A stretch of 40,581 nucleotides of DNA. Origin: Acidobacteriota bacterium. GTDB lineage: Bacteria > Acidobacteriota > Terriglobia > Bryobacterales > Bryobacteraceae. A program made the translations under genes and the position numbers. The notes under the pieces were generated by a model. The model worked only from the letters and a program-made list of their open reading frames with translations, ran no database searches and was not told the origin of the DNA. Below, piece after piece: positions 36,058-39,806 of this stretch (position 1 is the stretch's first letter; each line of letters starts with the position of its first letter). Location: the NCBI GenBank assembly GCA_025354525.1, contig JANXMS010000123.1:1-40581 (forward strand), read 5' to 3'.

Positions 36058-36894
36058 TCAAGAGTTCCGCAGCGTGGCCGAGTTCCAGAACGTTGCCGCA
36101 AGAATGATCGCTCCCCCTACTAAAGCGTACGGGCTGGGAACCTCTCCGTGGAAGAAACCCGTCCACACCGGGTTCAACGCCGGCTCCAGTAAAAGCAGCG
36201 CCGAGGCCGTAAATGCAGGCACTTGGGCCAATCCCCGCGTCAGGCACCAATACGCCAATCCAATTTGAATACACCCCAAATAAAGTACGGCCAACCAGTC
36301 GACAGCCTCTAGTACTTTTACCGGCCAAGCCATCGGCAGCGCCGCCGCAAACGCCATCAAATTCCCCACCGCCACCGCCCCCAACGACGATCCGCCCGCT
36401 CTCGCCGCTCCCCGCAAACACGCTACCGTTATCCCCCAACCCAATCCAGACAACGCTCCGTACCAGTTCCCCTGCGCCGGGTCCGGGGCCGTTCCACTCG
36501 CCACCGCCGGGTCCAAATAGAAAAACACCATTCCCACCGCCACCGCCGCCCCCAACCACCAGTCCGCCCGCCGCAATCGCTCCTTCAGTAATACCGGCCC
36601 CAACACCAGCAAATACAACGGCCCCGTCGCTTGCAGATAAATCGCATTCGCCCCCGTCGTCAGCTTCGTCGCCACCACAAAACTCACGAGCGTAACCGCA
36701 TAAGCCACCCCCGCCAACCCCGTCCGCCATGTCCATCCCCTTCGGCTCTCCGGCAGGATCGCGAGCAAAATCAACCCCGCCACCAAAGACCGCAGACTCG
36801 CCACCTGCCAACTCGTCATCGTCGTCGCCTTAATCACAACCCCACCCGTCGAAAACAACAGCGCCGCCGCCAACAGATAAATTCGTCCAGACAT
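36058..36894 (-). CDS. EamA/DMT-family membrane transporter
   Basis: The 278-aa protein is almost wholly hydrophobic, with about ten helices in two EamA repeats: the first from IYLLAAALLFSTGGVVIKAT to ATGPLYLLVLGPVLLKERLR, the second ending LLLLEPALNPVWTGFFHGEV (the conserved E-P and F-x-G-E pattern). DMT exporters move amino acids, nucleosides or other metabolites; the cargo is unknown. I start at ATG 36894 (MSGRIYLLAAALLF) because the longer frame back to 37056 runs into the opposite-strand kinase gene and is not membrane-like. It is divergent from the kinase operon with a 43-bp gap. Confidence 0.9.
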   Translation of the reverse strand: MSGRIYLLAAALLFSTGGVVIKATTMTSWQVASLRSLVAGLILLAILPESRRGWTWRTGLAGVAYAVTLVSFVVATKLTTGANAIYLQATGPLYLLVLGPVLLKERLRRADWWLGAAVAVGMVFFYLDPAVASGTAPDPAQGNWYGALSGLGWGITVACLRGAARAGGSSLGAVAVGNLMAFAAALPMAWPVKVLEAVDWLAVLYLGCIQIGLAYWCLTRGLAQVPAFTASALLLLEPALNPVWTGFFHGEVPSPYALVGGAIILAATFWNSATLRNS

Positions 36895-36937: not shown

Positions 36938-37948
36938 ATGGTCGACACCGCCCCCATCCGCCCCGGAGAAGAACTTCCCCTCGCCGCCCTCGCCGACTGG
37001 CTCCAGGTGCCGAAGGTCACTGTCTGCCAGTTCCCCAACGGCCACTCCAATCTCACCTATCTCCTCACCGCCGGCCCCGACGAATATGTCCTCCGCCGCG
37101 CCCCCCTCGGCCCGATTCCGCCCAAAGCCCACGACATGGCCCGCGAGTTTCGTCTCCTCACCGCCGTCCATCCCCACTTCCCGCCCGCCCCACGGCCCAT
37201 TCGCCTCTGCGAGGATCCCGGGCTCCTCGGCAGCCCCTTCTTCCTCATGGAACGCCGCCGCGGCATCGTCATCCGTTCCGCCCTGCCCCCAACTTGGGCC
37301 AACCAATGCCCCGCCATCAGCCAGGCCTTCCTCGACTGTCTCGTCCAACTCCACTCCGTCCCCCTAGCCGACCCCGCCCTGCTCGCCCTCGGCAAACCCG
37401 CCGGCTTTGTCGAACGCCAAGTCCGCGGCTGGTCCGACCGCTGGTATCGCGCCCGCACCGCCGACCTCCCTGCCATGGACTTGGTCGTCGCCTATCTCCA
37501 AAACAACCTCCCCCCCGAAGCCGCCCCCGCCCTCGTTCACAACGATTTCAAACTCGATAACCTAATGCTCCATCCCCACCACCCCTCCCGCGTCGAAGCC
37601 GTCCTCGACTGGGAGATGACCACCCTCGGCGATCCGCTCACCGACCTCGGCCTCGCCCTGTGTTACTGGGACCTCCCCGACGCCGATCTCGCCGCCGGCC
37701 CCGTCCCCTGCGTCACCCGCGGCCCCGGCTGGCTCACCCGAGCCGAACTCGCCGCCGCCTGGTCAGCCCGTACTGGCCGCAGCCTCGCCGCCCTCCCCTA
37801 TCACGAAATCCTCGGCATCTTCAAACTCGCCGTCATCGTCCAACAGATCTACGCCCGTTGGTTCCACGGCCAAACGAAGGATGTCCGCTTCGCCAACTTC
37901 GACGAGCGCGTCGCTTCCCTCGTCCGCGCCGCCCACTCCCGACTATGA
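36938..37948 (+). CDS. APH-type phosphotransferase, ACAD10/11-associated kinase
   Basis: The 336-aa protein-kinase-fold phosphotransferase has [12 protein letters not shown] (nucleotide loop), EYVLRRAP (lysine position replaced by R-R), the catalytic loop [13 protein letters not shown] (Asp203, Asn208) and metal-binding [20 protein letters not shown] (Asp224). This closely resembles the kinase half of human ACAD10/ACAD11 and bacterial LvaA-type enzymes, which phosphorylate a hydroxyacyl-CoA. It overlaps the phosphatase gene as ATGA and lies in the same operon as an ACAD10/11-type dehydrogenase. The hydroxyacyl-CoA substrate is inferred from context. Confidence 0.9.
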
Positions 37949-38631
37949 GCACGCTCACCTTCATCCGCCACGGCCAAGCCGGCTCCCGCGGCGTCTACGA
38001 CGTCCTCTCCCCCCTCGGCCAGCAGCAAGCTTCCCGTCTCGGAGAATATCTCGCCGCCCAAACTTTCACCCCCGACGTCTTTGTCACCGGAGCCCTCAAC
38101 CGCCAACAGCAAACCGCCGCCCTCCTCCACGCCGCGTGCCCCACCTTCCCGGCCCCGGCTGTTCTCCCCCTCTGGAACGAGTTCGACCTAACAAGCGTTT
38201 ACAACGGCATCGCTCCCCAACTCGCCGCCGAAGATCCCGTTTTTGCCAAATCCTTCACCGCCCTCGAACTCGCTACCGCCGATCCCACCTCCCCCGTCCA
38301 CCGCCGCTGGACCCCGGCCGACGTCGCCGTCATCCGCGCCTGGGTCGAAGACCGCTATCAGTTCCCCGGGGAAAGCTGGGCCCACTTCTCCGCCCGCATC
38401 CGCCAAGCCCTCGCCGAACTTCCTGCCGGCAATATCCTCATCTCCACCTCCGCCACCCCCATCGGCCTCTGTGTCGCCTTCGCCCTCGACGCGCCCCATC
38501 CCCTACGCCTCGCCGGAGCCCTTTACAACGCCTCCGTAACCACCTTGCGCTTTCACTCCGGAGACCTCCATCTCCAAGCCTTCAACAGCACTCCCCATCT
38601 TCCAGACCCCACTTGGCGGACCCATCGATGA
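37945..38631 (+). CDS. Histidine phosphatase-family protein, atypical second active-site block
   Basis: The 228-aa protein opens with the RHG signature ([13 protein letters not shown]; nucleophile His9), followed by [17 protein letters not shown] and [16 protein letters not shown], as in phosphoglycerate-mutase-like phosphatases. The mid-domain acid is in PLWNEFDLT. The C-terminal block that normally reads T/S-H-G-G has [16 protein letters not shown], so the second catalytic histidine is absent. It sits between the APH-type kinase and the acyl-CoA dehydrogenase, with ATGA overlaps on both sides, so a role with phosphorylated acyl-CoA intermediates is likely. The activity could be lost or altered. 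Confidence 0.85.
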
Positions 38632-39806
38632 ACTTCTCCTACACCCCCAACTCCCTCGTTTGGCAGTCTCGCCTCCAGTCGTTCATGGACGAAAAAGTTT
38701 ATCCCATCGAGGCCCACTACACTCCAGACCTCCTCGACGACTTGAAGGTCAAAGCCCGCGCCGCCGGCCTCTGGAACCTCTTTCTCCCGCACAACTCGCA
38801 CGGCGCCGGCCTGTCCAATCTCGAATACGCCCCCCTCTGCGAAATCATGGGCCGGGTCCCATTTGCCCCCGAAATCTTTAACTGCAACGCCCCCGACACC
38901 GGTAACATGGAGGTCCTCTCCCGCTACGGCACCCCCGCCCAGCAAGACAAGTGGCTCACGCCGCTCCTCGCCGGAGAAATCCGTTCGGTCTTCTGCATGA
39001 CCGAACCCGATGTCGCCTCCTCTGACGCCACCAACATCGCCGCCACCATCGAACGCGACGGCGACCACTACATCCTCAACGGCCGCAAATGGTGGAGCAC
39101 CGGGGCCGGCGACCCCCACGTCAGAATCATCATTTTTATGGGGAAATCGGACCCCACCGCCCCCCGTCACCAACAGCAGTCGATGGTCCTCGTGCCCTTT
39201 GATGCCCCCGGCGTCAAGCTCGAACGCCTCCTCACCGTCTACGGTTACGACCACCATCCCCACGGCCACGGCGAGATCACCTTCACGAACGTTCGGGTGC
39301 CCGCCTCGAACCTCCTCCTCGGCGAAGGCCGTGGATTCGAAATCGCGCAAGGCCGCCTCGGCCCCGGCCGTATTCATCACTGCATGCGGCTGATCGGCGT
39401 CGCCGAACGCGCCCTCGAACTCCTCTGCCGCCGCGTCTCCTCGCGGGTCGCTTTCGGTCGAAAACTCTCGGAAATGGGCTCCATTCGAGTCGATATCGCT
39501 CAGTCCCGCATCGAGATTGAACAAGCCCGCCTGCTCACCCTCAAGGCCGCTTACATGATGGACACCGTCGGTAACAAAGCCGCTCGCACCGAAATCGCCG
39601 CCATCAAGGTAGTGGCACCGAATCTGGCTCTCCGCGTCCTCGACCGCGCCATCCAGGCTCACGGCGCCGCCGGCGTCGGCCCCGATTTTCCCCTCGCCGC
39701 CTGGTGGGCGAACGCCCGAACTCTTCGTCTAGCCGACGGCCCCGACGAAGTTCACCTTGAAAGCATCGCCAAATGGGAGCTAGCGGCGTCCGCGACGCGG
39801 TCGTAG
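38628..39806 (+). CDS. Acyl-CoA dehydrogenase, ACAD10/11 type
   Basis: The 392-aa flavoprotein carries [20 protein letters not shown] and [17 protein letters not shown] (flavin/substrate region) and [20 protein letters not shown], which are distinctive of the ACAD10/ACAD11 group rather than ordinary fatty-acid dehydrogenases. [15 protein letters not shown] and [20 protein letters not shown] complete the fold. Members of this group act on 4-phosphorylated or otherwise modified acyl-CoAs after an APH-type kinase. The start at 38628 overlaps the phosphatase stop as ATGA; a longer open frame upstream is an artefact of the GC-rich phosphatase gene. Confidence 0.92.

Follow-up and report, generated by a model that had tools for sequence, protein, structure and literature searches.

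The window analysed here (G000:C418:1-40581, a contig of 40,581 nucleotides from the 7.3 Mb, 633-contig genome of an Acidobacteriota bacterium) holds a three-gene unit in which a histidine-phosphatase-fold protein (HP) is encoded between an APH-fold kinase and an acyl-CoA dehydrogenase (ACAD). Comparison across genomes supports HP as a conserved neighbour whose translation is coupled to that of the kinase, and shows it to carry a fixed serine in place of a histidine that active members of its fold use in catalysis. All three genes lie on the plus strand: the kinase gene at 36938..37948 (336 aa), the HP gene at 37945..38631 (228 aa) and the ACAD gene at 38628..39806 (392 aa). Both joints are 4-bp ATGA overlaps, of the kinase stop with the HP start (37945..37948) and of the HP stop with the ACAD start (38628..38631), and the HP start codon is consistent with its homologues, which begin MSxLxxxRHGQ. 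The original prediction had described exactly such an ATGA-coupled operon, and the coordinates confirm it.

We scored the presence of the three genes, at chosen thresholds, in 150 genomes of the window's order. In the sampled profile searches only some of the first-look candidates were scored (for example 14 per genome in the wider home phylum, and 9 or 6 in Pseudomonadota), so absences are soft. HP was found in 97 genomes, a kinase orthologue in 60 (with only a weaker match in 16 more) and ACAD in 75; HP and kinase occurred together in 59. Kinase matches were sorted by hand into 60 places taken as orthologues and 17 weaker ones. At 49 of the 60, an HP gene lay no more than 300 bp away in the same orientation, downstream in 47 and upstream in 2 (one of the 49 neighbours being an HP fragment at a contig end). 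Where HP was present, ACAD followed directly in 29 cases and one gene further in 5, the extra gene being an enoyl-CoA hydratase in locus L050 (by Pfam) and, by likeness, in L044, L053 and L121. Kinase-HP adjacency was seen in 21 of 27 genera and the whole trio in 11 of them. For these comparisons 13 short loci were set aside in favour of longer stretches of the same places, and seven HP fragment rows were not fetched (two each on G132 C78, G126 C837 and G109 C135, and one in G080). Rare adjacency of the phosphatase, the outcome that counted against the original prediction, was thus not what we observed. At L066, a class II aldolase gene (2197-2973) lies between HP and ACAD, a possible hint at substrate.

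The joints themselves are conserved too. Measured from stop to likely start, 41 of 47 kinase-HP joints were 4-bp overlaps, one was a 19-bp overlap and five were gaps of 4-41 bp; the start codon was taken as the best fit to MSxLxxxRHG, and single cases may be off. The genus-mates L117-L120 have both ATGA joints as in the window, yet the overlap is not peculiar to this genus, given its presence at 41 of 47 joints. A chance neighbourhood is likewise ruled out by the combination of adjacency across genera and shared overlap, and so widespread an overlap leans towards a link between HP and the kinase. In eight genomes of the order (L110-L116 and L059) two different HP genes flank the dehydrogenase, in the order APH-HP1-ACAD-HP2. 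In the tree, HP1 (the TSAT type, to which the window's protein belongs) is an acidobacterial group set off by a long branch, with poor support at its node, and HP2 (the TSGG type) is common to the acidobacterial order and other phyla. An HP-like remnant with a stop codon lies just 3' of ACAD at G132:C78:71901-72533, resembling a decaying HP2 copy.

The kinase and the dehydrogenase give the unit its probable chemistry. The kinase, of the type of LvaA and of the ACAD10/11 kinase domain, matches Pfam APH (PF01636, 159.5 bits), and its best solved relatives are 9o56 (named an aminoglycoside phosphotransferase; 301.6 bits) and ACAD11 (8v3v and 8v3u; 157.7 and 154.1 bits). Its HNDFKLDN loop aligns with HGDFKLDN of ACAD11, preserving the membership residues of the HxDFKxDN pattern, and we take the D and N of the ACAD11 loop to be D220 and N225, named as catalytic for the ACAD11 kinase in PMC12440821. 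The same pattern was found in 51 of the 52 kinase frames with E below 1e-90 in the fetched loci. The dehydrogenase carries the Pfam domains Acyl-CoA_dh_N, _M, _1 and _2, and is nearest to 4hr3 (485.2 bits) and ACAD11 (457.3 bits), with ordinary ACADs scoring at most 135.5 bits. Its HCMR-motif stretch and LADGPDEVH match ACAD11 (8v3u) with one differing Q/A-side residue, outside the named positions. In PMC12440821, those positions are R626, R631, H634, R637 and the catalytic D753 (mouse ACAD11 numbers), and the HCMR motif is described as specific to ACAD10/11 and essential for activity; the window's ACAD has equivalents of all five, the first four having been placed within the motif by hand count. 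Among ACAD frames of the fetched loci with E below 1e-90, R....R..HCMR is present in 52 of 52 and DGPDEVH in 45 of 52 (the exceptions being L008, L126, L129, L171, L176, L178 and L180).

Since both proteins carry the ACAD10/11 signature residues, a route for 4-hydroxyacyl-CoA is the natural reading. A split ACAD11-type route composed of kinase and ACAD is, as judged from these residues, well supported, in agreement with the original prediction of a split ACAD10/11- or Lva-type pair. The kinase is a predicted 4-hydroxyacyl-CoA kinase and the ACAD a predicted converter of 4-phosphoacyl-CoA to 2-enoyl-CoA, so that the operon very probably turns 4-hydroxy fatty acids into normal fatty-acid fuel.

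What HP contributes is harder to read. The protein matches His_Phos_1 (PF00300) with 61.6 bits; no NCBIfam family reached its cut-off. Its AF2 model, a single-chain prediction with pLDDT 96.3, is a plain branch-1 fold whose top structural match is PGAM5 (Z 23.2, rmsd 2.2 over 163 residues), and both the fold and the RHG nucleophile motif of branch 1 (PF00300) are in place. It shares with the branch-1 phosphatases PGAM5, CobC, PhoE, PSP1 and RosC/HFP the fold, the RHG motif, a second Arg, the acid Glu and a C-terminal N..xHL; R8, H9, R53 and E79 are invariant in all 156 HP sequences that cover them. It differs from them at position 169, where they have the second catalytic His and HP has Ser in 157 of 157 aligned sequences. 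These rows come from Acidobacteriota, Pseudomonadota, one Deinococcus and one spirochaete, and at least three of them are one gene fetched twice (L002/L040, L009/L151 and L007/L152), so that the number of independent sequences is below 157. In an alignment to the subfamily profile, which was built from Ser-bearing members, Ser169 falls on the second catalytic His of 6e4b, 6nru, 9mmh and 4ij5; the phosphatases so aligned were CobC of E. coli and Shigella, a riboflavin-pathway phosphatase (HFP) and phosphoserine phosphatase (PSP). As a control, a His stands at the equivalent place, by eye, in the three other PF00300 proteins encoded in this genome (SHGH, AHAG and GHEP), and single-sequence searches with HP gave no His-bearing member among the genes read. 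One of the control phosphatases (G000:C111:3084-3593, L184) aligns with two in-frame stops (TGA and TAG) and may be decayed or a frame artefact. The change is not local decay in one lineage, as Ser is found in all rows across phyla. Nor is the C-terminal His218 (155 of 157) a likely replacement for the lost residue, because the N..xHL histidine is also present in the canonical phosphatases of the alignment.

Because the fold, the nucleophile His, the Arg residues and the Glu are kept, HP should bind phosphate and may form a phospho-histidine, yet it would do so without a residue that canonical members use. With an invariant Ser replacing the second catalytic His while the pocket and the nucleophile are kept, HP is expected to be slow or non-hydrolysing. 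A real though doubtful alternative is that HP does work as a phosphatase, perhaps a slow one, for repair or as a safety valve; it would act on 4-phosphoacyl-CoA or on wrongly phosphorylated CoA esters, releasing CoA and phosphate once the ACAD is saturated. With His9, Arg8, Arg53 and Glu79 retained beside Ser169, a phospho-histidine mechanism would still be feasible, the full branch-1 fold closely matches active phosphatases, the coupling of a kinase to a phosphatase invites a corrective role, and the same role was proposed for a Pseudomonas citronellolis homologue in PMC6692424. Against it stands the absence of the second catalytic His throughout the subfamily, when the aligned CobC, HFP and PSP and the three same-genome proteins all have it; besides, a hydrolase beside the kinase would waste ATP. 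The original prediction that HP handles a phosphorylated acyl-CoA intermediate therefore holds in part: the conserved, coupled kinase neighbour speaks for it, whereas phosphatase action is made doubtful by the serine.

The association extends to other phyla. In a sample of the wider home phylum HP was present in 6 of 199 genomes, the window's included. An HP match was found in 45 plasmid records. Deinococcus accounts for 13 of these, and in 11 of the 13 a gene listed as a phosphotransferase overlaps the match. Regions of 4 of the 45 records were opened; the order ACAD-SDR-APH-HP was seen in the Deinococcus, Pseudoalteromonas and Ideonella plasmids, and ACAD-SDR-APH-DUF6285-HP in Azoarcus pAZKH. 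A spirochaete metagenome-assembled genome has HP adjoining ACAD, with the kinase about 2 kb off. Among Pseudomonadota, 47 of 299 genomes have HP, at 49 places, 30 of which had loci that were classified; 20 longer stretches were also read, including 3 at places for which no locus had been returned. A kinase lay within about 1.5 kb in 14 of the 30 loci and ACAD alone in 3, while in the longer stretches a kinase was found within about 6 kb in 12 and not in 8. An LvaC-type ACAD is present in 43 of the 47 HP genomes, and in 41 further genomes without HP. Kinase matches were split by hand (21 vs 11): every one of the 21 genomes whose kinase is of the Ideonella-cluster subtype has HP, within 1.5 kb in 16, and none of the 8 genomes where the sole kinase match is more distant does. 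One Pseudomonadota clade has the order HP-SCP2-APH-SDR, SCP2 (a sterol or acyl-CoA carrier) being identified by Pfam in L163. A small gene resembling it follows HP in L164 and L166. The stretches of L164-L166 gave no kinase match, though those genomes have a kinase elsewhere. In L003-L007, L009-L013 and L173, titled Rhodobacteraceae or relatives, HP has the Ser and no kinase or ACAD was matched nearby; by eye, the genes after HP in L004 resemble lysine-type dehydrogenases.

We also asked whether HP stands in the place of LvaB, taking DUF6285, as an assumption, to be the LvaB family. DUF6285 was not matched in the window's genome, and nowhere in the order's 150 genomes did it reach its cut-off, 3 weak matches falling below; in Pseudomonadota it reached the cut-off in 25 of 299 genomes. 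The 84 ACAD-positive Pseudomonadota genomes comprised 3 with both families, 40 with HP only, 18 with DUF6285 only and 23 with neither (Fisher p 1e-4, uncorrected for ancestry); HP and DUF6285 thus tend to exclude each other in these genomes. Comparison of DUF6285 with solved structures gave nothing informative. In the window there is no lvaB beside the kinase gene as in Pseudomonas putida, and HP occupies that place. According to PMC6692424, LvaB binds LvaA and both are needed for the kinase step in P. putida, with which the exclusion fits if DUF6285 is the LvaB family. A kinase partner is easier to picture than a phosphatase here, because HP would be standing in for a kinase helper; for a repair phosphatase the exclusion would be odd, one protein aiding the kinase and the other undoing its work. 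Replacement of LvaB by HP everywhere is ruled out by the adjacent DUF6285 and HP genes of Azoarcus.

Taken with the residues of both enzymes, these observations lead us to tentatively favour, at a little short of even confidence, a split module in which HP would partner the kinase, as a regulator or a slow sensor of phospho-acyl groups, or act as a brake on it. The APH kinase would phosphorylate the 4-hydroxyl of a 4-hydroxyacyl-CoA, and the ACAD would eliminate the phosphate to give a 2-enoyl-CoA for beta-oxidation, both steps being read from family residues. HP would be a phosphatase-fold kinase partner, most likely a regulatory subunit that hydrolyses slowly or not at all. By binding the 4-phosphoacyl group, or by being phosphorylated transiently itself, it may adjust or restrain the kinase and keep phospho-acyl-CoA from accumulating. 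It would then be the counterpart of P. putida LvaB and a convergent parallel to ACAD10's degenerate HAD domain. We infer all these catalytic and regulatory steps from gene order, overlap, conservation, residue pattern and co-occurrence, which are observed. A broader version is somewhat unlikely: that a widespread bacterial HP subfamily with an invariant Ser is a phospho-acyl-sensing regulator of the 4-hydroxyacyl-CoA kinase that replaces LvaB, animals having converged on the same solution through the ACAD10 HAD domain.

Several observations weigh against a dedicated kinase partner. A pure scaffold would not need R8, H9, R53 and E79 so strictly kept. The identity of DUF6285 as LvaB is an assumption, its side-by-side occurrence with HP in Azoarcus means that the two are no strict substitutes, the 23 ACAD genomes with neither family do without both, and the Fisher tests ignore shared ancestry. 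The query that defined the HP-linked kinase subtype came from an HP cluster. HP is also often found alone: 24 of 70 HP1 genes (a few at contig ends) and 21 of 35 HP2 genes of the order (some at contig ends) lack both kinase and ACAD in the stretch read, as do 13 of the 30 Pseudomonadota loci within about 1.5 kb; the orphans are scattered through the HP1 tree; and at the chosen thresholds 38 of the 97 HP genomes lack a kinase orthologue and 28 lack ACAD, single-contig genomes included. HP function must therefore also work away from the operon. This raises the alternative, which we consider unlikely, that HP has a wider acyl-CoA or lipid task of its own, such as the binding or trimming of a different phosphorylated molecule resembling CoA, and is only often co-transcribed with the kinase and ACAD. 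In line with such a task, orphan HP genes across many genomes have unchanged residues, G039 and G049 (single-contig genomes) carry HP while matching neither kinase nor ACAD at the chosen thresholds, HP lies beside SCP2 in Pseudomonadota, and a second copy lies 3' of ACAD in the eight double-HP genomes. A wider task sits poorly, however, with HP being present in every genome that has the HP-linked kinase, with ACAD in nearly all Pseudomonadota HP genomes, and with the prevalent 4-bp overlap with the kinase.

The favoured arrangement of a kinase, an ACAD and a phosphatase-fold partner has partial precedents. P. putida KT2440 has a separate LvaA kinase and LvaC ACAD acting on 4-hydroxyacyl-CoA (PMC6692424, PMC12440821), but LvaB where the window has HP, and lvaD and lvaE in its operon, neither of which was seen beside the trio up to the window's end. 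The closest case is P. citronellolis LA18T, in which PMC6692424 (2019) reports a histidine phosphatase family gene, PCLA_07f0393, between LvaA and LvaC homologues, with no lvaB homologue in the region as described there, and proposes as an untested guess that it removes phosphate from 4-phosphovaleryl-CoA (4-PV-CoA). The likeness of this gene to HP is one of description and position. That cluster differs in having SDR, regulator, transporter and CoA ligase genes, where the window has a three-gene unit with 4-bp overlaps. Mammalian ACAD10 and ACAD11 have the same kinase and ACAD families and signature residues, and ACAD10 a degenerate phosphatase-fold domain tied to the kinase (PMC11342911, PMC12440821); these are fused in one chain, the ACAD10 domain has the HAD fold and ACAD11 is without it. 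The HAD domain has lost part of its motif, shows negligible phosphatase activity and restrains the kinase, for a reason that PMC11342911 leaves to future studies; PMC12440821 did not evaluate it. The window has no fused HAD domain, HP being a separate gene with the histidine phosphatase fold, and any likeness to ACAD10 would be a convergence of role.

Contrary to the original prediction, a phosphatase-like partner is thus not outside the described schemes: PMC6692424 already had the gene order and the idea of hydrolysis, and PMC11342911 the HAD domain of ACAD10. The HP neighbour is real and conserved, and has been published once as an unexplained neighbour. Open-licence literature yielded no account of the Ser change or of HP conservation across phyla, which is weak evidence of absence. 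What looks new is how widely the link and its 4-bp coupling extend, that the Ser is invariant, that some clusters hold two HP genes, and that HP and DUF6285 tend to exclude each other.

Around the operon, an EamA transporter gene (36058-36894, minus strand, by Pfam) is divergent from it, and a gene that looks similar to it by eye lies in the stretch read from genus-mate L118. The window holds 775 bp 3' of ACAD, with only short frames; SDR and CoA-ligase references (lvaD/lvaE) had no match in the window up to that end. Genus-mates L117-L120 have an SDR-like frame downstream of ACAD on the opposite strand, at a place corresponding to one the window stops short of, and no ligase was matched in them. 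A scan of the window for terminators and promoters gave no signal above shuffled sequence.

4-Hydroxy acids, whether derived from levulinate, from lipid peroxidation or from polymer monomers, reach beta-oxidation through a phosphorylated CoA ester, and HP bears on the question of how the build-up of this ester is controlled, for which the restraint by the ACAD10 HAD domain is a known case. As a small stand-alone protein, co-translated with the kinase and bearing a fixed His-to-Ser change, HP makes this question testable in vitro with three proteins, and is a potential part for levulinate-pathway engineering, where it has not yet been used. If the broader version is true, a kinase with a dead-phosphatase brake would be a general solution for the 4-hydroxyacyl-CoA pathway.

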